A stretch of 64,000 nucleotides of DNA, from positions 62,001 to 126,000 of the forward strand of contig NZ_JARKMZ010000039.1 in assembly GCF_029360775.1 (NCBI RefSeq), in the 5' to 3' direction. Below the pieces are notes generated by a model that was given only the letters and a program-made list of their open reading frames with translations, did not search any database and was not told the origin of the DNA. Numbering within the stretch: position 1 is the stretch's first letter; each line of letters begins with the position of its first letter. The stretch is from Daejeonella sp. H1SJ63. GTDB lineage: Bacteria > Bacteroidota > Bacteroidia > Sphingobacteriales > Sphingobacteriaceae. This document shows, piece after piece, positions 6,286-33,762 of this stretch. Position numbers and translations under genes: made by a program.

Positions 6286-6879
6286 ATGATAAACGAAACG
6301 TTAAAGTTCATTTCAGATGAGGTGAATTCCTACCTCTCTTTAAAGCTTGGTATAAATACCGATCCAAGACTTATTCTGGGTAATATATCCAGAGCAATGG
6401 ATAATGATGTCCCGGGTGTTAATTCACTTGCAAACAGAGCTATCCTTTCTTTAGTCAATGTTGAGGAAGACCGTGTTGCCAGGCAACAAGAAAATTATGT
6501 TAAAACGGATTCAGGAATAACGTATAAAAATCCGCCGACTTACATTAACCTCTACATCTTATTTGCAGTAAATCGTACCGAATACACCGATTCTTTAAAA
6601 TGGCTGGCTTACATTATCCAGTTTTTTCAATATCAGAATGTATTTACCCCAATCAGTCATCCGGCATTAGATGAAAAAATAGAAAAGCTTATTGTGGATC
6701 TGTATACGCTCAATTTCGAACAGATTAACCATCTGTGGAGCACGATGGGCGGGAAGTATATTCCTTCAGTTTTATATAAAGTAAGGCAAATTACCATTAA
6801 TGAAGATGCTGTGGTTTCGGGTGGCGGACTGATTACTGAAATTAATAATCAGGCTAAATCTAAACTCGTGGTATCATGA
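6286..6879 (+). CDS. DUF4255 (Pvc16/Afp16-like) tail cap protein
   Basis: This 197-residue protein matches the DUF4255 family: the N-terminal MINETLKFISDEVNSYL helix, the IVEED-like NVEEDRVARQQ segment, and NLYILFAVNRTEY followed by LKWLAYIIQFFQ. The family caps the sheath and tube at the end far from the baseplate and sets termination of polymerisation. It is the first gene of the locus, whereas in Afp and PVC the cap gene is last. Its stop overlaps the next ATG by four bases (ATGA), so the two are translationally coupled. Assignment is firm from motif order and from the sheath gene nearby. Confidence 0.85.
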   Translation: MINETLKFISDEVNSYLSLKLGINTDPRLILGNISRAMDNDVPGVNSLANRAILSLVNVEEDRVARQQENYVKTDSGITYKNPPTYINLYILFAVNRTEYTDSLKWLAYIIQFFQYQNVFTPISHPALDEKIEKLIVDLYTLNFEQINHLWSTMGGKYIPSVLYKVRQITINEDAVVSGGGLITEINNQAKSKLVVS

Positions 6880-8054
6880 ACCTGCGGTATAAAATACTTT
6901 TTAGCATTGAGGTCAGGCATGACTATTATACCGATACCCGGTGTAATGATTTTGAGATAAGCCCCTCAGGAGAAACTGCTTCTGTTTTAAAAGGGCAGGG
7001 AATGTTATTTAAAATGGTCGGTAATAAGCTGATTGTACTGCTTAGAGTAGATGAAAGTGATAAACCACTGAGTGATTTCAGTAAAAGCGGGAAATTGACT
7101 TTTTTTATGAAGCTGACCAATCCGTATTTCAATAATTTTACTAACCTGGATTATCATCCCTCTGAACCCCGGAAATATTATTTCAGTAATGCAAATCAGT
7201 CAAAGGTTGGATCCGACCTTTATCTCAATTCAAAAATTCCGGTTTATAATAACACAAACGATTATCCGATAGGGACACTTGCCTCTAACGTGTCTGATAC
7301 TGTTTTTGAAGCGATAAAACCCAGCAGTAATTCCTCCAAGCGTCCATTGACTAATAAGGATTACTGGATGAACAGAGGGAAAATACAATATGTAAATTCT
7401 AATGATCTTGTTGAAGTTACCCCATTCGTATATTTATTTAATACCATTAGTGATACCGATTTTACAGTTAATATATACGGGCTGAACCCTAACACCGGGG
7501 CCTATGATATTCAGGTGACCAATACTGTAAATCTTAGTTTTTCAAGTTTTCAAACCTCGGTACCTGTTCGCCTTGAGAAGCTGCCAAAGGGTTATTATAG
7601 AATAGAAATTAATGGCGAAAGCCGGTATGTATATACAGACAGTGATGCCGTTTACAATAATATATTTGGCATCATAGAAATCTTTAATTTTCTGCCTGCT
7701 TCCAATGCCTTCGCTTTATTTAACGGATCAGGTACGGCTAATGGCTCCTTGTTTACTATCCGTTTTCCTAACAGGTTGCTTATCTGGAAATATATTGCAC
7801 GAAGCAATGATGTTGTATCAGTTAGCGACAGTCGCCCCCCGCCACATAAATTATCATTCATTCCTCAGGCGGGTAATGAATTTGTATCTGCAAAGCCGGT
7901 ACCTATTAGTCAAAAGCCCCTGAAAACATTATCTCTGGAATCTACTGCACTTGGTAACATATCAGCGATAGCTAATCCGGGCACGGATCGGCTTGGAACA
8001 ATTGAAATCGATGGAGATGCTTATTACAGTGCAGAAGTGCATTTAAATTATTAA
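6876..8054 (+). CDS. Unrecognised eCIS-associated protein, probable cap-side structural partner
   Basis: The 392-residue protein has no signal peptide or membrane segment and I recognise no named domain. It begins with a beta-rich module (RYKILFSIEVRHDYYTD, then FEISPSGETASVL) and continues as an alternating beta-sheet protein with many aromatic residues. The four-base overlap with the DUF4255 cap gene and its place directly before the sheath point to a structural role at the capped end, for example an adaptor between cap and sheath. That role is inferred from position alone; a surface or fibre function is also possible. Confidence 0.5.
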   Translation: MNLRYKILFSIEVRHDYYTDTRCNDFEISPSGETASVLKGQGMLFKMVGNKLIVLLRVDESDKPLSDFSKSGKLTFFMKLTNPYFNNFTNLDYHPSEPRKYYFSNANQSKVGSDLYLNSKIPVYNNTNDYPIGTLASNVSDTVFEAIKPSSNSSKRPLTNKDYWMNRGKIQYVNSNDLVEVTPFVYLFNTISDTDFTVNIYGLNPNTGAYDIQVTNTVNLSFSSFQTSVPVRLEKLPKGYYRIEINGESRYVYTDSDAVYNNIFGIIEIFNFLPASNAFALFNGSGTANGSLFTIRFPNRLLIWKYIARSNDVVSVSDSRPPPHKLSFIPQAGNEFVSAKPVPISQKPLKTLSLESTALGNISAIANPGTDRLGTIEIDGDAYYSAEVHLNY

Positions 8055-17547: not shown

Positions 17548-20500
17548 ATGGCTGAAAATATTACCATATTGAAAAATCCGGTTCTTAACAACAGTGAAGA
17601 CTTTAACTTCCTGCGTTCAAAAGGAATGGAATATATTGAAGCTTTGAGCAGCAGCTTATGGACTGATTACAATATACACGATCCGGGTATCACTCTTCTC
17701 GAGTTACTTTGTTATGCAATTACCGACCTTGGCTATCGGACATCTTTTGATATTAAAGATATTCTTGCTGAGGCACCAGGTGTAAAAGCTGATCATAATA
17801 AGCAGGCCTTTTTTACCGCCAGGGAAATTCTTACGGTCAATCCCTGGACAATTCAGGATTATCGCAAGTTACTGATTGATATCGACGGGATAAAAAATGC
17901 ATGGCTCTTCTGTAAGGAGATCTCTTGTGATGATCTCCTGATTTACGCCAATTGTGCCAAAAGTATATTGCAATATTCGCCTCCAACTGAACATCAGATA
18001 ATAATTAATGGCTTTTATGATGTTCTGATTGAATTTGAGGAAGAAGAAGGTGTGGGAGATCTTAACAGTGGTAAGATAAAGTATAATTTCAGTTTTATTA
18101 CTGATTCGCTTAACCTGGAATATTCAACTGCTGCAATCGAAATGCGTTTGCCGGCCTGGCATGATTTAGAGGCAAATAAGTCCGTTTACAAATCATTCAG
18201 GAACACTGATACTGTAATTACAGGCATTATAGTCAAGTTTATTTCTGGCAATAAAGGCGATAACTCCAATATTCCTCAAAATGAGCTGGCCAGAGCCTTG
18301 CGTAAACCGCTTTATGCGACAATTGATATCATTTATGCTGCCGATAAGGCTGATTTAACAGTCACAGAAACATTAACCCTTCCGGATACTCCATTTACAG
18401 TTTCGTTCGGCAGCGAATCCGATAGAAAAATTATACAATTGAGCGATCTTGAATTAGCTATTGAAGATTCTTCGGCATCAGGAATTATACCCAAATACCT
18501 TGAAAAAATTAAGAAGGCTGATGAAGTCATAGCGGAAACAAGGTCATTACTGCATCAGCATCGTAATCTCTGTGAAGATTTTTGTTCTGTAAAAGGTATA
18601 GAAGTTGAAGACATGGCAATCTGCGCTGACATGGATCTAAGTTCTGATGCAGATATCGAACAGGTGATGGCCCGGGCCTATTACCTGATAAGTCAATATT
18701 TTAGTCCTGATATCCGCTTTTACTCCCTGAAAGAACTGCTTCAGACAGGCATAGCTGTTGAGGAAATATTTGAAGGGCCGAAATTAAACAGCGGATTTAT
18801 TAATAATAATGAGCTGGACCAGACCCGGCTTAAAGAGGAACTATATACCTCAGATATAATCAATCTGTTAGCTGATATCCCGGGAGTAATCGCTATCAGG
18901 AACCTGGTTATTGTAAAGTATGATAAAGAAGGCAATCGTATTCAGAGCGAATCCTGGACGATGCCGGTTACATTGAATCATCAGCCCCGCTTGTATATTG
19001 AAGGCTCCAAATTTTTGTTATTTAAAAATGGTCTTCCTTTTCTTCCCGACAAACTGGAACTATCTGATTCACTTCAGGTTATCAGAGGGATGAATGTACA
19101 TCTTCAGTTCTCAGTAACTGATAATGATCTGCCTGTTCCTGAAGGAACATATTACCAGCTGAATAGCTATCAGCCGGTACAATATGGTTTGCCTTTAACC
19201 TACGGACTGGGCGATGAGGGTTTGCCTTTGAATGCCCCGGATAAAAGACGTGCACAGGCAAAGCAACTGAAGGCCTTTCTGCTTGTATTCGAACAGGTTC
19301 TGGTTAATTACCTGGAACAATTAAGTCATGTAAAGGACTTATTTTCACTGGATAAAACTGTTTTAAAAACATATTTCAGCCGGCTTCTTGACAATGATGA
19401 TATCAATGGTATTAGCGATTTGTATGCTCTGGTGAATGGTGCAATATTAGATCAAACAACTCTGGATGATTTAACAGAGTCTAAAACAGTTTTTCTCGAC
19501 CGCAGAAATCGCTTTCTGGATAGTCTGATGGCCCGTTTTGCCGAGCGTTTTACCGATTATGCATTAATGCTTTATTCTTATGAAGGGAATAAAAAACTGG
19601 CAGATGAAATTCTTATAAACAACAAGATCAGCTTTCTCAAAGATCTGCCTTTCATGAGTGCTAACAGGGCCAGGGCATTTAACTATAAAGATGCCGGACA
19701 CGTATGTGATAATGAAAATATTGCCGGTTTAAAAATGCGGATTGAGCGCCTCTTAGGTCTTAAAAAGGCCAGAGACTATTTCGAGTTGTATGAAGAAAAG
19801 GATATAGACAATGTTTCATTCGAACAAAGGTGGCGTTTGGTTGATGATGACGGGAATATTTATATCAGCAGCAGTACCAGATATACAGACCCCGATTTAA
19901 CTCTTGCTGAAGCAAAAGCACAAAAAGAAATAGATGAGGTACTGAAGTATATCACAAATGAAGGCAGCTTTGAGATAAAGAAGGAGAAGAAATGGATTCT
20001 TAATTTAAAAGACGGGACCGGAGAGACCATAGCCACACGTAAACAAAGTTTTCTCACAGAGGCAGCGGCAAAAGAGGCCCGTGATGAAATAATAAAATAT
20101 GTTAAGCAGTTACAGCTTTCCAATAAAATATTTATTGTAGAACATCTTCTATTACGTCCCCGAAATATGCCCGGCACTGAAGTTGTGAATGGTGATCCTT
20201 TTTTGGGTATCTGTATCCCGGGGAACTGTGATTTATGCGGTCAGGAGGATCCATACTCATTCAGGATGACTATCGTTATGAACGGGGAAGCTGGTCTGGC
20301 AAATTCGGGTATCGCATTCCGCCGCTTTGCTGAAGATACAATCCGGATGGAAATTCCCGCACATCTGGCACTTAAAATTTGCTGGGTAAGTAACCTGCAG
20401 CTGGAAAAATTTGAACAATTGTATTGTGCCTGGTTAAATGAACTTGCAAAGAATGAACAGGATACATTAGCCTTACATACCAAACTGACTCTTCTCCTGA

Positions 20501-20604
20501 ATGAATTTATAAAGCTTAAATCAGTTTACCCTAAAGCTTCTTTGCATGATTGTGCAGATGGCAACGACGAAAACAGGGTGTATCTGGATCAAACAATAAT
20601 ATAG
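17548..20604 (+). CDS. Second large baseplate wedge protein (Afp12-like)
   Basis: The 1018-residue protein begins with a conserved baseplate segment at about residues 27-70 (GMEYIEALSSSLWTDYNIHD, PGITLLELLCYAITDLGYRT). This segment is shared by Afp12-like wedge proteins that partner the baseplate J protein. The C-terminal portion includes a cysteine-bearing LGICIPGNCDLCGQEDPYSF stretch near residue 885, followed by FRMTIVMNGEAG and an ending with another cysteine. That segment resembles a structural zinc or disulfide motif, though I cannot prove metal binding. It follows the Afp11-like gene by 44 bases. Confidence 0.75.
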   Translation: MAENITILKNPVLNNSEDFNFLRSKGMEYIEALSSSLWTDYNIHDPGITLLELLCYAITDLGYRTSFDIKDILAEAPGVKADHNKQAFFTAREILTVNPWTIQDYRKLLIDIDGIKNAWLFCKEISCDDLLIYANCAKSILQYSPPTEHQIIINGFYDVLIEFEEEEGVGDLNSGKIKYNFSFITDSLNLEYSTAAIEMRLPAWHDLEANKSVYKSFRNTDTVITGIIVKFISGNKGDNSNIPQNELARALRKPLYATIDIIYAADKADLTVTETLTLPDTPFTVSFGSESDRKIIQLSDLELAIEDSSASGIIPKYLEKIKKADEVIAETRSLLHQHRNLCEDFCSVKGIEVEDMAICADMDLSSDADIEQVMARAYYLISQYFSPDIRFYSLKELLQTGIAVEEIFEGPKLNSGFINNNELDQTRLKEELYTSDIINLLADIPGVIAIRNLVIVKYDKEGNRIQSESWTMPVTLNHQPRLYIEGSKFLLFKNGLPFLPDKLELSDSLQVIRGMNVHLQFSVTDNDLPVPEGTYYQLNSYQPVQYGLPLTYGLGDEGLPLNAPDKRRAQAKQLKAFLLVFEQVLVNYLEQLSHVKDLFSLDKTVLKTYFSRLLDNDDINGISDLYALVNGAILDQTTLDDLTESKTVFLDRRNRFLDSLMARFAERFTDYALMLYSYEGNKKLADEILINNKISFLKDLPFMSANRARAFNYKDAGHVCDNENIAGLKMRIERLLGLKKARDYFELYEEKDIDNVSFEQRWRLVDDDGNIYISSSTRYTDPDLTLAEAKAQKEIDEVLKYITNEGSFEIKKEKKWILNLKDGTGETIATRKQSFLTEAAAKEARDEIIKYVKQLQLSNKIFIVEHLLLRPRNMPGTEVVNGDPFLGICIPGNCDLCGQEDPYSFRMTIVMNGEAGLANSGIAFRRFAEDTIRMEIPAHLALKICWVSNLQLEKFEQLYCAWLNELAKNEQDTLALHTKLTLLLNEFIKLKSVYPKASLHDCADGNDENRVYLDQTII

Positions 20605-24253: not shown

Positions 24254-25693
24254 GTGACTTCAACTAATGGAAATATTATCCGGAAGCAGATCATTGATGT
24301 AATTGTCAATGCACCTGTTAATGGTTTTGAGTTTCAAAACGAAGTTGAAAGCCTTTGCCGGCTTAAATTGAAGACCGGACTGGAAAACTTAATGCTTAAA
24401 TATGGTTCAATGGAGGATGTAATCTGCATTGATCTGTTGTTTGCGGAGGTTGAATATAATAGTATGGAGGATTTTCAAAATTTGTTTGCGGAGAAGATAT
24501 TAGCTGAAATTGAAAAGCAACTGGATGAAAAAATAAGTTATTCGGATGCATCAAATACTGATTTAAATTGGTCAAAAGCAGACAGATTGCTTAATTTATT
24601 GATTTTTTATCTCCGCAAAGGATTTTTACCCTGGTGGAGCACTGTTAAAACATCATCTGATTGGCAGGCACAATTAAATAAGCTTATTTCTGAGGGAAAT
24701 GGACCCGCTAACTGGACGATACTTTACCCGCCACTTAAAGAAAGTGGGGTCAGAACGCGGTTATTGGAGATTCTTAACCAGGAGCAGTTTTGGAAATTGA
24801 TTAAGAGTTTAACAGAAGTTAACACGGGCAGTCTCAGGGCTGATTATGAAATTATCCTGAGCACTTTTAAGGACGCCAAAGAAAAGCACATTTTGGGACA
24901 GCTTTATAAAAACCTTTTATTATACTCAATTTCCGAAGCCGGAAATGGCAAAACTCTTATTGATTTGTTTTCAGGTATCCTGACGAATGATATTGAATTA
25001 AAATACCCTGAGCTGCTTTCCTTAATTATTATTGATAAGATTAATACGCCTGCATTAAGAGGTTTTATGGTTAAGGCAATGCGAAAATCTGTGAATAATC
25101 CTTTGGAGATTCGCACAAAAGAAACAAGATCAGCTGATAATACAAAACTTGAAAAAAATCAGCCTGCCGAACGCGGCTTCAAACAAGATAGCCCAACAGA
25201 AAAGGATGAAATTTATATTAATAATGCCGGTTTAGTCATTGTTTCGGCCTTTTTACCTATGTTTTTTAATGATATCCGACTAATTTCAAAAGCAGGAGTT
25301 TTAGACAGTAATAAGGCAATCGCAGTGATGCAATATATTGTCAATGGCCGGGATGAATATGAAGAATTTGAAGCAGTGTTAGCTAAAATACTATGCGGAA
25401 TAGAAATAAGTGATCCGATTTCAAAATATAGGTTAAGCAGAAAGGAAAAGCGTAAAGTAAAAGACCTGCTGGAATCAGTTGTGGAACATTGGGCGGCATT
25501 AAAAAGCACTTCTGCAGATGGATTAAGGGCTTCATTTTTACAAAGGGAAGGCAAATTGAATTTTAAAAATAATAACTGGAACCTGAAGGTTAAGCAGGAA
25601 GCTTATGATATGCTGATACCCCATATTCCATGGAATATCAGTCTGATAAAACTGCCCTGGATGAAGTGCATGCTAAATGTAGAATGGACATAG
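24254..25693 (+). CDS. Contractile injection system tape measure protein (Afp14-like)
   Basis: The 479-residue protein matches the CIS tape-measure family at both ends. The N-terminus has IIRKQIIDVIVN and EVESLCRLKLKTGLENLMLKYG, and then LLIFYLRKGFLPWWS. The C-terminus has INNAGLVIVSAFLPMFFND, KAIAVMQYIVNG, ILCGIEISDP and the closing SLIKLPWMKCMLNVEW. Such proteins set tube length and may sit in its lumen. It starts with a GTG one base after the previous stop. The size, between the shared ends, suggests a rather short particle, but converting residues to nanometres would be guesswork. Confidence 0.9.
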   Translation: MTSTNGNIIRKQIIDVIVNAPVNGFEFQNEVESLCRLKLKTGLENLMLKYGSMEDVICIDLLFAEVEYNSMEDFQNLFAEKILAEIEKQLDEKISYSDASNTDLNWSKADRLLNLLIFYLRKGFLPWWSTVKTSSDWQAQLNKLISEGNGPANWTILYPPLKESGVRTRLLEILNQEQFWKLIKSLTEVNTGSLRADYEIILSTFKDAKEKHILGQLYKNLLLYSISEAGNGKTLIDLFSGILTNDIELKYPELLSLIIIDKINTPALRGFMVKAMRKSVNNPLEIRTKETRSADNTKLEKNQPAERGFKQDSPTEKDEIYINNAGLVIVSAFLPMFFNDIRLISKAGVLDSNKAIAVMQYIVNGRDEYEEFEAVLAKILCGIEISDPISKYRLSRKEKRKVKDLLESVVEHWAALKSTSADGLRASFLQREGKLNFKNNNWNLKVKQEAYDMLIPHIPWNISLIKLPWMKCMLNVEWT

Positions 25694-25761: not shown

Positions 25762-28700
25762 GTGTTCGCAGCCCCAGAAAGTACGACAAAAAGCACAAGT
25801 ATTGCCCGGAAACAGGCAGATACCAGTACCACTTTTTTTCGGAAGGCTGATGAAGCAAGTTTTTTTGGAGAAAAAAAATCGGATGCGTTTTTTGGGCCGT
25901 CTGTACAGGCTAAATTAAATATCAGTCAGCCTGATGATCCCTACGAAAAAGAGGCCGATCAGGTAGCCGATACCGTCATGCGGATGCCGGAACCAGCCAC
26001 TCAGATTGCCGGGGACACAGGGGAAGAAAAATTACAGCTAAAGGAAGATGATGAGCAAGAGGAAGTAATCCATCCCAAACTGCAGATCCCTCAAATAAGT
26101 GCAGTCCAGTGCAAAGAGGAGGAAGAAAATCTTCAGGCAAAATTCTATAACAGTATTTACAGAAAGAGTTATGACGAGAATTTTGAGTTTAATGATACCA
26201 CTAACGAGGGATCCGGAGAACAATATTCGATTAATAGAAAATCTATTTCCTTATTTCAGTCAAATGTAATACAGTGCAGCGGGAGAGGTCCCCCGCAAAC
26301 TTCATCATCCTTTGAACATACATTAAGCAGCTCCAATGGAGACGGAAGCGCAATGTCACCTGAAACAAGAAGTTTTATGGGGAGTCGCTTCAATGCCAAT
26401 TTTGATGATGTTCGTATACATACAGGCAGCAGGGCAGAAATGCTGAGCAGCAGTATCCATGCCCATGCTTTTACGCATGGCAATGATATCTATTTTAACA
26501 GCGGTAAATATTCTCCGAGTACCGCTGAGGGTGGGTTATTGCTTGCCCACGAGCTTACTCATACCATCCAGCAGGGTGCCAGTAAAACGAATCAAACATC
26601 GGCCGTAGTCGCAAGGAAAGCAATTATCCAGCGAAGTCCCAATACAGGTTCTTCTGTTCCTCAATTAAATAATGCCCTTGCAAAAGCTAAGGGAGAAGAA
26701 GGTAAGGTCAATGCCAACAGGGAAGGACCTGATGGCTATCGTGAAGGATGGGAACGATTATTAGAATATTTCAAAACAACTTTTGGTGAGGATAAGATTA
26801 TAAGTGGAAGCGGCGGAACTGCTGTAAGCGGTGCAGTGAGTGAGATGGATATCAAGAAAAAGCGGCAGGCGATGGGTATGCGTCCTAATCAGCCAAGGCC
26901 AAGCACAGATGACAGAGTGATGCGCGATGCCATGCCAAGCTGGTGCGGCATATTCGTATTCTGGGCCTTAAACAAAGGTGGAATCCCAATGAAGAAATGG
27001 GAGCTTGGTGGCCGGATGGTTACACCTGATGCATCCCGGACACCGGGAGAAATGCCTCAAACCGGTGATATTGCCTATCGAAATGAGTTTTCTCATTTTG
27101 CAATTGTTGAGAAAGTAACCGGCAGTACAGTTACAACGGTCAATGGAAATACATCCGGTGAGGACAACCTTGGGGCACAGGTACAAACCCGTGATCATCC
27201 TTTGTCCGGCTGGACCGCCTTTTTCGATCCTTTAAAATTAAAAACCGGTGCTCTTGGTGATGGTGAAGGAACCCAGGTTGAAGAAAAACCAAAAACTATA
27301 AAAGAATTAAGGAAAGAGTTGTTCAATATCGACAGAAAAGAAGATACTGATCGGGATGAAATAACAGTTTCAGGCGATCATACAGCTATTCAAACCAAAC
27401 CTGAGTTAAGCAATTGGAATGTTAGTGGCAAAGGCGATCTTGTTCAATTGCAGAATGCCAATCTTAACCGGGAAAATGAAATTCAGCCCAAAGAGGAAGG
27501 AGAACAGGAGGATGAAATATCAGGAGGGCTGATTGAGCATAGTTTGCAAAGAAAAACGACCTCTGTAATACATCAATTACCTTTTAATAAGCCAGGGGGT
27601 TCAATCCAGTCTAAGGAATCTGCGACCCCGGCGTATTCTATTTTAGCAAACAACGCCTCAAATAGCACATCTTTTGTACAAAAACAGGAAGAAATCTCAG
27701 AAAATAACCGTGGCCCGCCGGTTTTGCAAAGAACAAGCAGTGACTCTGTTCAATGTTCATGGTTTGATGATGCATTTTCTGCCGTAACATCTTTTGTTGC
27801 CGAAACTCTGGAAGCCGGGAAACGTTTGTTCCTTAACGAGGCCAGAGATTTTGTTATGGCTATACCCGGTTATCGTGCGCTCAGGGTAATTTTAGGCGAA
27901 GATCCGATTACCGGTGAAGAGATCGAACAGAATGGTCACACCTTTATTGAAGCCGCATTCGATATTATGCCTGGCGGCAGATTGCTGCATCAGAAACTGA
28001 ATGAACTTGGTGCATTAAATGATGCGGCCTTATGGGTTGATCAGCAGATTGCAACCGTCCATGGATTGGTGCAGGGAGTAATTAACCGTGTTAGTCAGTT
28101 CATTGAGAGTTTAAGTTTAGAAAGACTGGCATCTCCGCGCCAGTTGTTTGAAGAGGCCGGAAATATTATATACTCAACCATTCAGAGTATTATTGATTTT
28201 GCTATTACCGCCGCTACCGAATTGCTTGAAACCGTTAAGCGATTCCTTCTAACTCAAATTGTAGAATTCGTCAGAAATCATACTACAGCTTATCCGCTCT
28301 TAAGGGTTGTCCTTGGTCAGGATCCGATAACCGACGAGCCCGTAGAACGAAATGGTACTACTATCCTGAGTGCATTGCTTGAACTGGGTGGTGAAGAGGG
28401 AATTGCCCAGCGTACCCAAATGCAGGAAACCGGAACCTTCCAGAAGGTAGCCGACTGGATAGATCGGGGTATAGGTGTATTCAGTGATGCTTACGATCAG
28501 ATAAAAACCGGATTTACTACTATTTGGAGCAGAGTTTCAATAGAGAGCCTGATGCATCCTGTTGATACCTTCAATATGATTTATGATCAGTTTGCTGCAC
28601 CGGTACAAAGGGTTTGGGATTTTGTAAGGGATACTGCTATAGTCATCCTCCGCTTTATCAAGGAGGTCTTAATGCGAAGATTATCCACCTGGGCAAGAAC

Positions 28701-31038
28701 AGTCAGAGGTTTTGCCCTTGTTACAGTGATCATCGGAAAAGATCCTTTCACTGATGAAATTGTTCCGCGTACCATGGAAAACCTCATCAGAGGATTTATG
28801 AGTCTGATGGAGGGTGGGGAGGAACAGTTCAATCAGCTCAAAGAATCCGGCGCGATAGAACGTACCACTGCACGCATAGAAGCGGCAGTTGCCCGACTGA
28901 ATATGACTCCGGTTTATATCGTGCAGCTCTTTACCAGTTTGTGGAACTCCTTTAGTTTAAACGATCTTGCTCAACCTATACAAGCTTTTGAACGGATTAT
29001 AGCCCGGTTTGGAGAGCCAATCGGCAGGCTGATTGCTTTTGTAGTCGAGATTGTCAGGATTGTCATTGAAGTAATTCTGCAGGTGATGAACTTCCCTATT
29101 GCCCTGATAGGTAACATCATCACCAAAGCCATGCAGGCATTTGATATGATCAAGGCAGATCCGGTGGGCTTCCTTAAGAATTTGCTGAAAGCCATCAAGC
29201 AGGGCTTTATGCAGTTCTTTGATAATATTTTAAAACATCTGATGGCTGGTCTGGTGGGCTGGCTAACCAGCGAATTAAAGGATTCAGGAGTAAAAGCACC
29301 TGAAGATTTTAGTTTACGCGGAATTATCGGCTGGGTGCTTGAAGTTCTCAACATTACGATGGAGAAAATATGGGAAAAACTGGCTGCCCATCCGCGTATA
29401 GGTCCTGAAAGAGTAGCCCGGATCCGGAGTATGATCAATACGCTTGAGGGGATCTGGACATTCATCAAAGATGTGCAGGAAAGAGGAATGGCTGCTATCT
29501 GGGATAAGATAAAAGAACAGCTTACCAATTTGTGGGATACTGTTCTGGGTGCAGTCAAAAACTGGATCATGGAACAGATTGTTACCAAGATGGTGACCAA
29601 GCTGTTATCAATGCTCGATCCGACAGGTATTATGGCTGTAGTAAACAGTGCGATCGCTTTATACAGCGCGATACAATCATTCATGAAATACCTTCGTGAG
29701 ATGCTTGAGATCGTCAATTCATTTGTGGAAGGAGTGGTGGAAATAGCCAGTGGAAATACCAAACGTGCAGCCGATTATCTGGAAGGAACATTAGCCAGAA
29801 GCATACCGGTTATTATTGGATTCTTAGCTAACCAGGTTGGACTAAGTGGTATTGGAAGAAGAATAGGAGAGATGATTGAAACCGCCCGTAATTTGGTGGA
29901 TCAGGCATTAACCTGGCTGGTGAATAAAGCCGTAGATGTTGGAGGAAGATTACTTGAAATGGGAAGATCTGCTGCGAATACTGTTCTGGGTTGGTTAGGC
30001 TTCAAGAAGACCTTTCATCTTGCTGATGGAGAAGAGCATGAGCTGTATTTTGAAGGGGAATCGCCAACGGCTGCTATCACTCTTGCCAGTAAAGATCCAA
30101 AAACCCTGCAGTCTGTTATCGCTTCGAAATCATGGTTAGGAAAGAGCATACCTGATCCGAAAGTTGCTCAAATTCAAGCGGAGGCTACTTATATTGATGC
30201 ACGAAGGGCGAATCAGACGGTTACAGCCGGCACAGAAATAAAAGCGGCATTTGATAGAATTATAGCTGTTTTAAATACCATTACAGGTAATCCTGTTCCC
30301 TCTACTTTAGCTGCTGTACAGGAGACGAGAGGAAGTGGCACAGCTTTAATGGGGCGACACGTGTTCATTAATCCATTGAGTTTAAATCCGGGTGGATTGG
30401 TTGGTACGCAGCCCACTATGGACTCTGATATGGGTGCTGAATTGCTGAGACGATATCCGGGAAAATTAGTTGAAGGCCATCTGTTAAATCACAATCTCCA
30501 TGGACCAGGTAATCAGCGCTGGAACCTTACTCCAATATCCCATGCAACTAATAATGCAATGAAGTTGAAAGCAGAAAATCAGGCCAAATCTAATGTTTTA
30601 TCTCAGGGTAAAGTGATTTCCTACAGGGTCAGGGTAAATTATAAAGCTGATCTTGATCCATCAGCTTCTACCTATCCAGAGGGTCAAATTGCGGATAGTA
30701 TTGATATGACTGTACAGGAACTCGAGTTTAAAAATAATGCCTGGGTACCAATGGCAACACAACCTGGATGGGCCATTGCAGCCAGTGGTAATATTCAGCA
30801 TGATACATCTGGTATACCTGGTTTTGGCGGATCTGTTGCCTCAATGAAAATAAACTTAAATACCGGTAGCAGAAGAGACCTGGAAAGATTACCTGCAATA
30901 GGGCAATCTAAAGTTAACGCCATACTAGCTTACCGTTCAACCAATTTATTCACTCAGATTGATGATTTATTAAAAGTTCCGGGTATAGGCGAAACAGCAG
31001 TAAATAGCATTAAAAATGATCCCAATGTAGAAGTTTAG
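25762..31038 (+). CDS. Giant DUF4157 eCIS cargo candidate: CHAP-like, helical repeats, nuclease-like and HhH domains
   Basis: This 1758-residue protein starts at a GTG 68 bases after the tape-measure gene. Residues 1-60 carry an FFRK...SFF...FF pattern shared with the second cargo. DUF4157 (about 198-271) holds HELTH at 263-267. A CHAP/NlpC-like segment follows with Cys395 (PSWCGIF), His445 (FSHFAIV) and Asn461/463 (VNGNTS), the order expected of a cysteine amidase or peptidase. A disordered linker with many LQRK-like motifs spans about 500-670. Three 140-residue repeats have LGEDPIT-type cores at Asp714, Asp854 and Asp994, then long helices run to about 1410. A nuclease-like segment has GHLLNHNLHGPG from Gly1572 and NLTP at 1588. 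Residues 1695-1758 form a ComEA-like double helix-hairpin-helix. No signal peptide was seen. Enzyme activities are predictions. Confidence 0.7.
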   Translation: MFAAPESTTKSTSIARKQADTSTTFFRKADEASFFGEKKSDAFFGPSVQAKLNISQPDDPYEKEADQVADTVMRMPEPATQIAGDTGEEKLQLKEDDEQEEVIHPKLQIPQISAVQCKEEEENLQAKFYNSIYRKSYDENFEFNDTTNEGSGEQYSINRKSISLFQSNVIQCSGRGPPQTSSSFEHTLSSSNGDGSAMSPETRSFMGSRFNANFDDVRIHTGSRAEMLSSSIHAHAFTHGNDIYFNSGKYSPSTAEGGLLLAHELTHTIQQGASKTNQTSAVVARKAIIQRSPNTGSSVPQLNNALAKAKGEEGKVNANREGPDGYREGWERLLEYFKTTFGEDKIISGSGGTAVSGAVSEMDIKKKRQAMGMRPNQPRPSTDDRVMRDAMPSWCGIFVFWALNKGGIPMKKWELGGRMVTPDASRTPGEMPQTGDIAYRNEFSHFAIVEKVTGSTVTTVNGNTSGEDNLGAQVQTRDHPLSGWTAFFDPLKLKTGALGDGEGTQVEEKPKTIKELRKELFNIDRKEDTDRDEITVSGDHTAIQTKPELSNWNVSGKGDLVQLQNANLNRENEIQPKEEGEQEDEISGGLIEHSLQRKTTSVIHQLPFNKPGGSIQSKESATPAYSILANNASNSTSFVQKQEEISENNRGPPVLQRTSSDSVQCSWFDDAFSAVTSFVAETLEAGKRLFLNEARDFVMAIPGYRALRVILGEDPITGEEIEQNGHTFIEAAFDIMPGGRLLHQKLNELGALNDAALWVDQQIATVHGLVQGVINRVSQFIESLSLERLASPRQLFEEAGNIIYSTIQSIIDFAITAATELLETVKRFLLTQIVEFVRNHTTAYPLLRVVLGQDPITDEPVERNGTTILSALLELGGEEGIAQRTQMQETGTFQKVADWIDRGIGVFSDAYDQIKTGFTTIWSRVSIESLMHPVDTFNMIYDQFAAPVQRVWDFVRDTAIVILRFIKEVLMRRLSTWARTVRGFALVTVIIGKDPFTDEIVPRTMENLIRGFMSLMEGGEEQFNQLKESGAIERTTARIEAAVARLNMTPVYIVQLFTSLWNSFSLNDLAQPIQAFERIIARFGEPIGRLIAFVVEIVRIVIEVILQVMNFPIALIGNIITKAMQAFDMIKADPVGFLKNLLKAIKQGFMQFFDNILKHLMAGLVGWLTSELKDSGVKAPEDFSLRGIIGWVLEVLNITMEKIWEKLAAHPRIGPERVARIRSMINTLEGIWTFIKDVQERGMAAIWDKIKEQLTNLWDTVLGAVKNWIMEQIVTKMVTKLLSMLDPTGIMAVVNSAIALYSAIQSFMKYLREMLEIVNSFVEGVVEIASGNTKRAADYLEGTLARSIPVIIGFLANQVGLSGIGRRIGEMIETARNLVDQALTWLVNKAVDVGGRLLEMGRSAANTVLGWLGFKKTFHLADGEEHELYFEGESPTAAITLASKDPKTLQSVIASKSWLGKSIPDPKVAQIQAEATYIDARRANQTVTAGTEIKAAFDRIIAVLNTITGNPVPSTLAAVQETRGSGTALMGRHVFINPLSLNPGGLVGTQPTMDSDMGAELLRRYPGKLVEGHLLNHNLHGPGNQRWNLTPISHATNNAMKLKAENQAKSNVLSQGKVISYRVRVNYKADLDPSASTYPEGQIADSIDMTVQELEFKNNAWVPMATQPGWAIAASGNIQHDTSGIPGFGGSVASMKINLNTGSRRDLERLPAIGQSKVNAILAYRSTNLFTQIDDLLKVPGIGETAVNSIKNDPNVEV
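27841..29100 (+). repeat. Three 420-nt (140-residue) protein-level tandem repeats in the cargo gene
   Basis: The aligned aspartate codons at 27901, 28321 and 28741 are spaced by exactly 420 bases each. Each unit contains a core of the form LRVILGxDPITxE followed by a helical stretch and a DxxI-rich helix. Nucleotide identity is low, so the duplication is old and kept at protein level. Boundaries are approximate. Confidence 0.75.
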
Positions 31039-31195: not shown

Positions 31196-32374
31196 ATGAA
31201 AGCTTCACCAACCCGCATCATCTATCGCCGCAGAAGATCTTCTGCCGATGGTGTTTTTTTCAGAAAAGAAAACAAAGCCGACCAAAGCTTTTTTAGCGAT
31301 CCGGCTCATGAACCCTTCTTTCAACAGGTTCCGGTAACAGTTCAACGAAAATGTGATACTTGCGAAGAAGAAGAAAAATCTCTTCAGCGCAAGCCACTGA
31401 AAGAAGAGGAAGAAAAGAAACTTCAACGCATCCCGGATAAAAAAGAGGAAGAAGAGAAGAAAAAAGTCCAATTGAAATCCGGGGATAAAAAAGAAGAAGA
31501 GGAAAAGAAACTTCAGAAGAAAGAAAAGGAGAAGGAAGAGGAAAAATTGCAACTAAAAGAAGCGAATGGTAAAGCTGCCGCAACAAATACACCAGCTTAT
31601 CTGAATACTCTCAATAGTAAGGGCAGTGTTCTGCCCAAAAAAACTCAGCATTTCTTTCAGAGTCGTATCGGGCACGACTTCTCAGCAGTGAAAATACATA
31701 CCGGTACTGAAGCCGAAGCCTCTGCAAAAGAAGTAAATGCGAAGGCCTATGCTTTTGAAAATCATATTGTATTCAATAAGGGTGAATACAACCCGGCTAC
31801 GCGGGAAGGAAAGTGGTTACTGGCTCATGAACTGGTACATACCATACAACAGGGCAATGCATCCATCTCAAAGAAAGAGAAAGATGAATCCGGGGCACCA
31901 TGTACAGCCGGATCCGTTGATCTGGAAGCTGAAACAACTGCCGGTTTTGCAAAGAAGGCAGGAAGCGTTGTGAACGAAAAAACCAGGAAAAGCAAGGGAT
32001 GCACAGATTGTGAGGATGAATGTGTAAACATTACCGGTACTTTAAAGGTTCCGTTTAAAGCAAGTACTAAAATTAGTTTACCGGCAGTACCCGGAAATCT
32101 TAGTCCATGTCAGCAGGACAGAGTACATGCCGCAATAAATGGTCCTTTACTTAAACATGAAAAACAGCATGTAAAAGCCTTCGAAACTTTTGATGGTACC
32201 GCATCACTTGCTATCAATTTCATTGGTTGTGAAAGTGATTATACATCTTATCAGGAGAATCTGGCAGAACAGGAATTTCAGAGAAGGAAATCTTCTGCAG
32301 AGGCTAAAAGCGCAGCCCTCGACCCATTTACTGTACCTGTAGATTTATGCTGTACAGACAAGCCTAAAAAGTGA
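31196..32374 (+). CDS. DUF4157 protein with second HExxH motif, eCIS cargo candidate
   Basis: The 392-residue protein has an N-terminus with FFRK...SFF...FF, like the giant cargo. A lysine/glutamate-rich low-complexity section (about residues 58-124) is punctuated by LQRK, VQLK and LQKK. DUF4157 spans about 140-220, with HELVH at 211-215. A C-terminal region then holds paired cysteines (CTDCEDEC) and a separate HEKQH at 321-325 followed by glutamates, as in DUF922-like zinc-peptidase folds. No Sec signal was seen. It lies between the giant cargo and the ATPase and overlaps the ATPase start by four bases. Cargo status and protease activity are inferred from motif and position. Confidence 0.7.
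   Translation: MKASPTRIIYRRRRSSADGVFFRKENKADQSFFSDPAHEPFFQQVPVTVQRKCDTCEEEEKSLQRKPLKEEEEKKLQRIPDKKEEEEKKKVQLKSGDKKEEEEKKLQKKEKEKEEEKLQLKEANGKAAATNTPAYLNTLNSKGSVLPKKTQHFFQSRIGHDFSAVKIHTGTEAEASAKEVNAKAYAFENHIVFNKGEYNPATREGKWLLAHELVHTIQQGNASISKKEKDESGAPCTAGSVDLEAETTAGFAKKAGSVVNEKTRKSKGCTDCEDECVNITGTLKVPFKASTKISLPAVPGNLSPCQQDRVHAAINGPLLKHEKQHVKAFETFDGTASLAINFIGCESDYTSYQENLAEQEFQRRKSSAEAKSAALDPFTVPVDLCCTDKPKK
31400..31567 (+). repeat. Low-complexity KEEEEKK-LQ repeat segment
   Basis: About four imperfect units of 14-16 residues (KEEEEKK followed by LQR, VQL or LQK) are encoded by a purine-rich strand. The bias makes the sense strand almost all A and G. It lies between the N-terminal FFRK region and DUF4157 and is probably disordered and highly charged. 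Confidence 0.75.
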
Positions 32375-33762
32375 TTGTGCAGATTTTTTTTTTTAACTTA
32401 GAAATAAAAACGGTGCTATATCCAGTTCATAAAAACAGACCGGCTCAATCTTCGGTTGAGAATGCATTGACCAATATCAGGGATCTGCTTGCCTGGCGAA
32501 TCCAATCGCATTTTAATGAGAGTCCTGCAGATCTGGATAAGTGGTTGGAAAAAAATGGTAATGAACTTATTCCTGCTGATCTTAAAGTAAACCTTCCTGC
32601 TCTTAATAACGAAGAATGGATAGTTATTATGCTTTCTCTTATTCCTCATATTCAAACTAATTTTTTTGAATCTGTCATCCTCGGGCATCTTCCTTCAGGG
32701 GGCGACTTTCCGGAGTTTGGCGGAGTAAAAGCCAGTAACCATCGCGGCATGCTTCCTACGGGTGAGACTATCCAGTTTATACTTTCGGGCACTGATATCG
32801 AAAAGCGCTTGCAGGTACAGGATATGTTCCGTGAGCAGCATATTTTCTTTAAAGAAGGAATTTTGTGGCTTGAACCTGTCAAAGAAGGCGAACCTGTAAT
32901 GAGCGGCCGTATAATCCTTGCGCAGGATTGGATAGAGAAATTGATTTTTGGCAGGGAAAGTGCACCACGTTTCGGACTCGATTTTCCTGCCAAACATATT
33001 ACCACAAGTATGCTTTGGGATGATGTTGTACTGCATCCGCGTACAGTACAGCAGGTTAATGATATCAGTAACTGGCTGGAACATCATCATAAACTGGATG
33101 ATGATGAAAACCTTAAAAGAAAGATAAAACCGGGGTACCGTGTTTTATTTTACGGTCCCTCCGGAACAGGTAAAACTTTAACTGCCGCTTTACTTGGCAA
33201 GCAGTTTAAGAAGGATGTTTACAGGATAGACCTTTCTCAAATTGTAAGTAAGTTTATAGGCGAAACCGAAAAAAATCTTGAAGGAGTTTTCAAAAAGGCG
33301 GAAACTAAAAACTGGATATTGTTTTTTGATGAGGCTGATGCGCTTTTTGGTAAACGTACAAATGTGCAGAGTGCGCATGATAAATATGCAAACCAGGAAG
33401 TCAGCTATTTGCTTCAGCGTGTGGAAGATTATACCGGCCTGTTGATCCTTGCATCAAATTTTAAGAATAATCTTGATGATGCCTTTATTCGCCGTTTTCA
33501 TTCTGTGGTACACTTTCCGATGCCGAATACCACTGAACGGCATATTTTATGGCAAAAATCAATGCCTTCAGGATTAAAAAAGCATTCTTCAATTGACTTG
33601 TCAGAATTATCCGGTAAATACGAACTTAGCGGGGCCTCAATTTTAAATGCAGTACACTTTGCAGTCCTTCAATGTTATTCCAGAAATGATAATACACTTT
33701 ATCATAAAGATCTGGTTGAAGGTGTCCGAAAAGAATTTTTGAAGGAAGAAAAATCAATTTAA
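32371..33762 (+). CDS. AAA+ ATPase of the eCIS (Afp15/PVC15-like)
   Basis: The protein has 463 residues from the GTG at 32371. Its C-terminal half is a AAA+ module with Walker A GPSGTGKT (262-269), Walker B LFFDEAD (D320, E321), the LILASNFKNNLD sensor-1 segment and RRF arginine finger region. Related ATPases are thought to help load cargo or disassemble sheaths. The N-terminal half is helical and specific to eCIS ATPases. The true start is uncertain. The GTG at 32371 overlaps the upstream stop (GTGA) and puts an 11-T tract inside the coding region, whereas the GTG at 32413 avoids the tract. No convincing Shine-Dalgarno site separates the two. Confidence 0.85.
   Translation: MIVQIFFFNLEIKTVLYPVHKNRPAQSSVENALTNIRDLLAWRIQSHFNESPADLDKWLEKNGNELIPADLKVNLPALNNEEWIVIMLSLIPHIQTNFFESVILGHLPSGGDFPEFGGVKASNHRGMLPTGETIQFILSGTDIEKRLQVQDMFREQHIFFKEGILWLEPVKEGEPVMSGRIILAQDWIEKLIFGRESAPRFGLDFPAKHITTSMLWDDVVLHPRTVQQVNDISNWLEHHHKLDDDENLKRKIKPGYRVLFYGPSGTGKTLTAALLGKQFKKDVYRIDLSQIVSKFIGETEKNLEGVFKKAETKNWILFFDEADALFGKRTNVQSAHDKYANQEVSYLLQRVEDYTGLLILASNFKNNLDDAFIRRFHSVVHFPMPNTTERHILWQKSMPSGLKKHSSIDLSELSGKYELSGASILNAVHFAVLQCYSRNDNTLYHKDLVEGVRKEFLKEEKSI
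32384..32394 (+). repeat. T11 homopolymer at the 5' end of the ATPase gene
   Basis: Eleven consecutive T's begin 13 bases after the GTG start. Under the upstream start, gain or loss of one T would frameshift the ATPase. Under the downstream start, the tract would lie in the leader and be neutral for the frame. Confidence 0.9.

Follow-up and report, generated by a model that had tools for sequence, protein, structure and literature searches.

The 64,000-nucleotide stretch of Daejeonella sp. H1SJ63 DNA analysed here (the window) contains one extracellular contractile injection system (eCIS) cluster, located at approximately 6.3–33.8 kb by Pfam matches and the list of open reading frames (ORFs), and a gene of this cluster encodes a giant effector of 1758 residues. 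We consider it probable that this protein is a polymorphic eCIS toxin directed at bacteria: like Tme of Streptomyces davawensis it would be built on a tape-measure-like trunk, here with its own wall hydrolase, and would carry a nuclease at an exchangeable C-terminal tip (Table 1). An initial annotation, made from the DNA letters and translated ORFs, had described this ORF adjoining the tape-measure gene, with a DUF4157 domain containing HELTH, a CHAP-like segment with Cys395, His445 and Asn461-463, repeats of 140 residues, a nuclease-like segment and a ComEA-like double helix-hairpin-helix (HhH) tail, and each of these elements was recovered. The papain-like and nuclease folds on which that proposal depended were both present in the predicted structures.

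Relatives were collected by a profile scan of genome contigs with the trunk alignment, the scan patterns being the CHAP motifs, which yielded 38 loci; the presence of CHAP among them reflects this selection and holds no information on its frequency. The loci were mostly from Bacteroidota, with one from Chloroherpetonaceae and one from Polyangiaceae (Myxococcota). L123 (frame split across two ORFs) and L145 (contig end) were dropped, leaving 36 full-length relatives which, with the window protein, gave 37 aligned proteins. In all 36, CHAP is placed between DUF4157 and the helical part, its presence again being by selection.

Comparison in 50-residue blocks with the ortholog of Paradesertivirga mongoliensis (1712 aa) gave an identity of 0.76–0.98 over residues 201–1400, excepting a linker at 501–650 (0.26–0.6), followed by 0.52 at 1401–1450 and only 0.06–0.38 from there to the C-terminal end. 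Mean identity of the relatives to the window protein was 0.33–0.66 per block over 651–1400 and 0.11–0.12 at 1451–1550. On these alignments the conserved trunk ends near residue 1445, with the tip beyond it being exchanged. Pairs of loci gave the same picture (L137 was left out of the trunk and tip distances): the window and P. mongoliensis (L111) proteins have a trunk identity of 0.82 and a tip score of 0.06 of self, and close trunks with unrelated tips were likewise found for L138 and L140 (trunk 0.95, tip 0.08) and for L127 and L129 (0.90 and 0.03). Some close trunks keep their tip, as in L128 and L135 (0.87 and 0.75). A conserved N-terminal part joined to an exchanged C-terminal toxin is the arrangement expected of polymorphic toxins.

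Screening the 37 tips with Pfam at E 0.05 identified Endonuclea_NS_2 in 24, HHH_3 in two and HNH families in single members. The initial annotation had regarded cell-wall cleavage together with DNA cleavage in one cargo as an uncommon pairing. Both folds are indeed present, CHAP in the conserved trunk and only the nuclease in the swappable tip; the rarity did not hold up, since Endonuclea_NS_2 is matched, at E 0.05 or lower, by 24 of the 37 tips carried on a CHAP-bearing trunk, making the pairing common in the family and no oddity of this genome. A role for CHAP as a second warhead was ruled out because it sits in the conserved trunk, outside the exchanged tip, and the tip alone is replaced.

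The predicted folds are well supported. Segment 290–500 adopts a papain-like NlpC/P60 fold in the predicted structure, and the higher-scoring fold matches are mostly entitled peptidoglycan hydrolases, endolysins or NlpC/P60-family proteins. C395, H445 and N461 are kept in 37/37 aligned proteins (C395 belongs to a scan pattern, H445 and N461 do not), as are H263, E264 and H267 of the HExxH motif of DUF4157, a domain which scores 95.6 bits against a gathering score of 22. The CHAP segment is predicted to be the peptidoglycan-cutting domain of a delivery trunk. A homologous segment in the relative G370 matched Pfam CHAP with E 3e-4, below the cut-off (21.7 vs 26 bits), and a PDB sequence search with the CHAP profile gave chance-level matches (best E 0.044). 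Synonymous sites were saturated in the CHAP comparison and no dN/dS value was obtained. Among the trunk homologs compared, six aligned across CHAP and 12 did not. G389 and G370 have CHAP without the trunk, ahead of DUF4157; this reversed order of the two modules is noted for trunk-less eCIS proteins of L106 (4790–6865) and L107 (6257–10417).

For the tip, the endonuclease family PF13930 lies above its Pfam gathering score (32.6 vs 27 bits), and H1573, N1588, N1597 and E1605 are kept in 26/26 chosen tips. A nuclease fold match was found with VIA, and score, catalytic His, Mg-binding Asn and fold all agree with the DNA/RNA non-specific endonucleases. Foldseek with a 669-residue model returned nothing at E 0.001 or below, the Serratia endonuclease appearing at E 0.48 with a probability of 0.90, and a PDB sequence search with the tip profile was at chance level (best E 0.51). 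The tip is predicted to cleave nucleic acid.

The trunk resembles phage tape-measure proteins, a feature also used for Tme according to the accessible text of PMC11126660. Residues 885–1652 match phrog_58 of PHROG (tail length tape measure protein) with E 1.1e-14, three further PHROG tape-measure families are matched with E 7e-5 to 0.0017, and several such matches were also obtained for the effector of L122. The hydropathy profile shows a strong peak at 1090–1108 (2.36) and weaker ones at 1281–1308 and 1347–1365. The repeats within the trunk score 30 bits for PT-TG over the whole protein, against a cut-off of 23.5, with no single stretch passing alone. A search of 72,556 plasmid records with the window protein gave 78 matching records, none of which spanned 80% of the query in one place. 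Trunk-like proteins were seen on plasmids of Streptomyces, Deinococcus and Oscillatoria (L152–L154) with transposase genes nearby; those stretches have no annotated eCIS structural gene in their gene tables, which are incomplete.

These features are consistent with the following course of events. Loading into the tube would rely on the N-terminus and DUF4157 of the effector, together with the adjacent DUF4157 protein and the AAA+ ATPase. Motifs of the N-terminal segment are common to other eCIS effectors, with a similar motif discernible by eye in G389 and G370, and the segment is a probable loading signal. After contraction, CHAP would cut the peptidoglycan of the target envelope, either at its cross-links or within the stem peptide, and the hydrophobic helical trunk would then aid the chain across the inner membrane, as is thought for phage tape-measure proteins. 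The C-terminal nuclease would finally cleave the nucleic acid of the target, with the HhH pair holding the tip on DNA. Trunk and wall hydrolase would form a conserved vehicle; the exchanged cassette would be the tip, joined in some relatives by an immunity gene, and other bacteria are the likely targets. The wall step has a precedent in diffocin, whose hub bears an NlpC/P60 domain placed to cut the wall; such hydrolases are described as absent from systems aimed at Gram-negative bacteria (accessible text of PMC10996793). Membrane passage has a precedent in the tape-measure model discussed in the text available for PMC11126660, and exchangeable tips with immunity in the Sle1-type effectors, as far as the accessible part of PMC13277306 describes them.

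The genes following the effector were compared across the relatives. Twelve of the 36 loci have a gene of 197–235 aa whose start falls in the interval from 19 nt ahead of the effector end to 17 nt beyond it; shorter abutting ORFs in L134 and L142 (117 and 149 aa) were not counted, and in L115 the contig ends there. Similarities among 11 of these genes (L137, L134 and L142 being left out) correlated with those of the tip at r 0.97 and with those of the trunk at 0.37, and in a partial Mantel test (0.97) none of 5000 permutations was as high. Tracking the tip and not the trunk is the behaviour expected of immunity genes, and these neighbours are candidates for that role. Eight of the 12 were scanned with Pfam: one gave SUKH-1 (E 0.0026, below the cut-off), one a strong DUF7003 match and six nothing.

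Several points weigh against an antibacterial toxin of this design. The window CHAP segment lies under every CHAP family cut-off by sequence, with no PF05257 row at E 0.1, and CHAP/NlpC folds include proteases and other amidases too. The tape-measure matches may be inflated by helical composition, and the model has low confidence in the HhH region (40–62 pLDDT in ten-residue blocks). An abutting gene of the above size is missing from 24/36 relatives; linkage alone would make neighbour and tip travel together, and a few clusters of related loci drive the correlation between them. The window itself holds no candidate immunity gene beside the toxin, where a polymorphic toxin would be expected to have one and where the 12 relatives have a candidate: 157 bp follow the effector, and ORFs there reach at most 23 aa once the genes on either side, and any ORF that runs into the next gene, are set aside. 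The source genome gave no match to SUKH-1 and, in a search run without a positive control, none to the candidate family of the relatives. Lastly, Tme is described as acting on its own producer (accessible text of PMC11126660).

One alternative is a self-acting effector of the Tme kind, in which the particle acts on the producer or its siblings, CHAP loosens the own wall and the nuclease cuts DNA for release of extracellular DNA, lysis or development; an immunity gene would be unneeded. Such a function appears rather unlikely, given abutting genes in a third of the relatives, tip-matched in the 11 tested, and the exchange of tips while the trunk is conserved, a pattern typical of conflict with other cells.

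The separate wall-cutting genes of some relatives bear on the substrate of CHAP. Muralytic genes of this type were observed between the tape-measure and effector genes of L112, L114, L116, L118, L119 and L137 (6/36 loci). In four of these loci the gene encodes a CHAP-like protein of 250–252 aa, 26–29% identical to the effector CHAP (blastp E 9e-8 to 1e-4 in a very small subject set), whose L116 copy contains Pfam CHAP (E 1.1e-11) and PG_binding_1; in the other two an amidase gene occupies the site, the L137 copy being Amidase_2 (E 4e-28). Pfam was run on the L116 and L137 genes, and the other four were typed by similarity to these. A papain-like protease, either self-processing or substrate-cleaving, which frees the trunk or tip after ejection would also suit the fold, and seems distinctly unlikely: the wall is indicated by the PG_binding-CHAP and amidase genes in this position in six relatives and by the fold-match titles, and the CHAP domain lies about 1000 residues ahead of the tip boundary.

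Nuclease effectors of eCIS that are directed against eukaryotes are known, reportedly from Rocchi et al. 2019 (cited in PMC11297309). The window protein might likewise have a eukaryotic target, as does the nuclease effector of metamorphosis-associated contractile structures (MACs), with CHAP hitting a host protein or being vestigial; this is very improbable, as a wall-cutting fold that keeps its three catalytic residues in 37/37 proteins would find no substrate there, and relatives have tip-matched candidate immunity genes.

The antibacterial reading might be extended to a cargo with its own entry kit, in which the wall enzyme has shifted from the baseplate hub to the cargo, the trunk provides membrane passage and the tip combines an EndA-type nuclease with a ComEA-type grip on DNA. 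EndA and ComEA are paired in pneumococcal-type DNA uptake, as separate DNA-import proteins; in the window protein the nuclease fold resembles EndA and the HhH ComEA, with both folds in one chain. The tip could then seize and process the target chromosome at the membrane. We hold this extension to be decidedly improbable; if true, two parts of a DNA-uptake machine would be united in one chain, for a function beyond mere digestion.

The closest known effector, likened by description, is Tme (BN159_7576) of S. davawensis, a large CIS effector with an N-terminal DUF4157, a tape-measure-like trunk and a C-terminal EndA-type DNA/RNA non-specific endonuclease (accessible text of PMC11126660). The window protein shares a very long ORF within a CIS cluster and a DUF4157 near the N-terminus. 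For Tme, the accessible text mentions neither CHAP nor HhH, and places tme immediately upstream of the baseplate genes, whereas the window gene follows the tape-measure gene; the action of Tme on its producer is a further difference. The available part of PMC13277306 describes Sle1/Sle2 of Streptomyces lividans and Sle1-type proteins as tape-measure-related CIS effectors with C-terminal domains that vary between species, one having a neighbouring immunity gene shown by co-expression. There, DUF4157 is on a separate protein, Sle2, and no CHAP, nuclease-HhH tip or Bacteroidota members are described. The eCIS-associated toxins (Geller et al. 2021, PMC8213781; Danov et al. 2024, PMC11297309) share an N-terminal DUF4157, a linker of up to >1000 aa and a C-terminal toxin, and their reported activities include peptidoglycan hydrolysis (EAT10) and nuclease action, with one toxin-immunity pair described as well; the accessible text of both papers includes no wall hydrolase with a nuclease in one effector and does not describe the long linker as enzyme-bearing. 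For the hub-hydrolase CD1368 of diffocin (PMC10996793, PDB 8v3w), the part available describes the hydrolase as located on the baseplate hub and not in the cargo. No eCIS effector that unites a wall hydrolase with a nuclease was found in a literature search by title and start of abstract, with most subscription papers outside its coverage; its hits included a review of NlpC/P60 enzymes in mycobacteria and a study of T6SS effectors in Salmonella. Each ingredient is known separately, namely DUF4157 effectors with a very long linker, toxins acting as wall hydrolases or as nucleases, and a toxin-immunity pair; what is new is their combination, the conserved trunk and the tip exchange.

Two open questions are addressed by this family, namely how tape-measure-like eCIS cargo passes the target cell wall and whether such cargo aims at bacteria. 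Both become testable with a wall-hydrolase trunk, exchangeable nuclease tips, tip-matched neighbours, dozens of sequenced Bacteroidota and a sharp natural tip boundary. It would bring phage tape-measure proteins, polymorphic toxins and eCIS effectors together in a single architecture.

Table 1. Features of the effector gene and of the genes beside it (window positions).
Feature	Position	Strand	Basis
eCIS tape-measure protein gene (CIS_TMP), directly upstream of effector	24254..25693	+	Pfam PF19268, E 3.5e-97
Giant eCIS effector gene, 1758 aa, single frame	25762..31038	+	Longest ORF of cluster
Polar N-terminal segment, residues 1-190, motifs FFRKADE/FFG and DPYEKEAD	25762..26331	+	Sequence
DUF4157 / eCIS_core, residues 198-273, HELTH 263-267	26353..26580	+	Pfam PF13699, E 2e-27
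CHAP/NlpC-P60-fold domain, residues 290-500; C395, H445, N461	26629..27261	+	Predicted fold
Variable linker, residues 505-655	27274..27726	+	Mean identity to window 0.10-0.37 in blocks 501-650
Helical tape-measure-like trunk, residues 660-1440	27739..30081	+	PHROG phrog_58; conserved to ~1440
Three 140-residue repeats, PT-TG-like, markers at 712, 852, 992	27802..29067	+	Sequence and Pfam PT-TG
Swappable C-terminal tip, residues 1445-1758	30094..31035	+	Identity drop to P. mongoliensis ortholog after 1450
DNA/RNA non-specific endonuclease fold, residues 1512-1688; H1573, N1588, N1597, E1605	30295..30825	+	Predicted fold
ComEA-like double helix-hairpin-helix, residues 1693-1751	30838..31014	+	Pfam HHH_3, E 5.9e-12
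Second DUF4157 protein, 392 aa	31196..32374	+	Pfam PF13699, E 1.3e-27
eCIS AAA+ ATPase	32371..33762	+	Pfam PF00004, E 5.6e-27

The HhH tail scored 45.9 bits for HHH_3 (PF12836), above the gathering score of 27. Apart from the window, the other HHH_3 tip was taken to be that of the Polyangiaceae locus L122, on the basis of its sequence and of a tail 39% identical to that of the window; the tail is rare but recurrent in the family. The window nuclease domain is nearest to those of L130 and G762 and that of L122 to L118 and L117, and none of these four has an HHH_3 match. As the two nuclease domains are not mutually nearest, HhH was probably joined to nuclease tips separately in the window and the Polyangiaceae genome, at least twice. 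Weak HHH_3 matches after a nuclease-like part were seen in G313 (0.0033) and G111 (0.063). In G422 an HhH tail, with HHH and HHH_3 matches below the cut-off, follows a tip of another type, which shares 41% identity with the tip of L119 across 275 aligned columns; L119 is without HhH. The window tail gave raw scores of 101 with the L122 tail and of 104 and 100 with the ComEA-like HhH of two same-genus genomes. Copying from the ComEA-like HhH of its own genome was not supported, the matches there being weaker (34% identity, E 0.004 and 0.014; raw scores 79 and 74 vs 101 for the L122 tail). Third-position GC is 0.26 in the HhH part of the gene (30682–31035) vs 0.46 in the trunk core, in keeping with a later acquisition. 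A 572-aa protein of L110 (3896–5614), with no trunk match and no HExxH, has a hairpin-plus-nuclease tip on a short carrier, and such tips may also travel on other vehicles.

In the cluster, Pfam named Pvc16_N, sheath, gp19 tube, CIS_tube, spike-hub (Phage_base_V/GPD) and PKD-containing genes, with a Baseplate_J match slightly under its cut-off (20.7 vs 21.1 bits) and no match for the 392-aa gene at 6876–8054 or the 1018-aa gene at 17548–20604. The effector is placed after the baseplate region and CIS_TMP and before the DUF4157-AAA pair. Likewise, the usual order in the loci of the 36 relatives, common to most, is tape measure, effector, optional small gene, DUF4157 protein and AAA. A one-off fusion or assembly artefact was ruled out by the same order in the 36 full-length relatives. 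The source genome (3.65 Mb, 56 contigs) has two DUF4157 matches, both inside the window cluster. The second DUF4157 protein carries an HEKQH motif toward its C-terminus, which may be a second metalloprotease site like the one predicted for Cgo1 of AlgoCIS in the accessible text of PMC8894135. L137 (7179–15866) has a 2895-aa effector that shares the trunk and whose tip contains a second HExxH (residue 1830) and DUF4157, and a DUF7003 gene comes directly after this effector.
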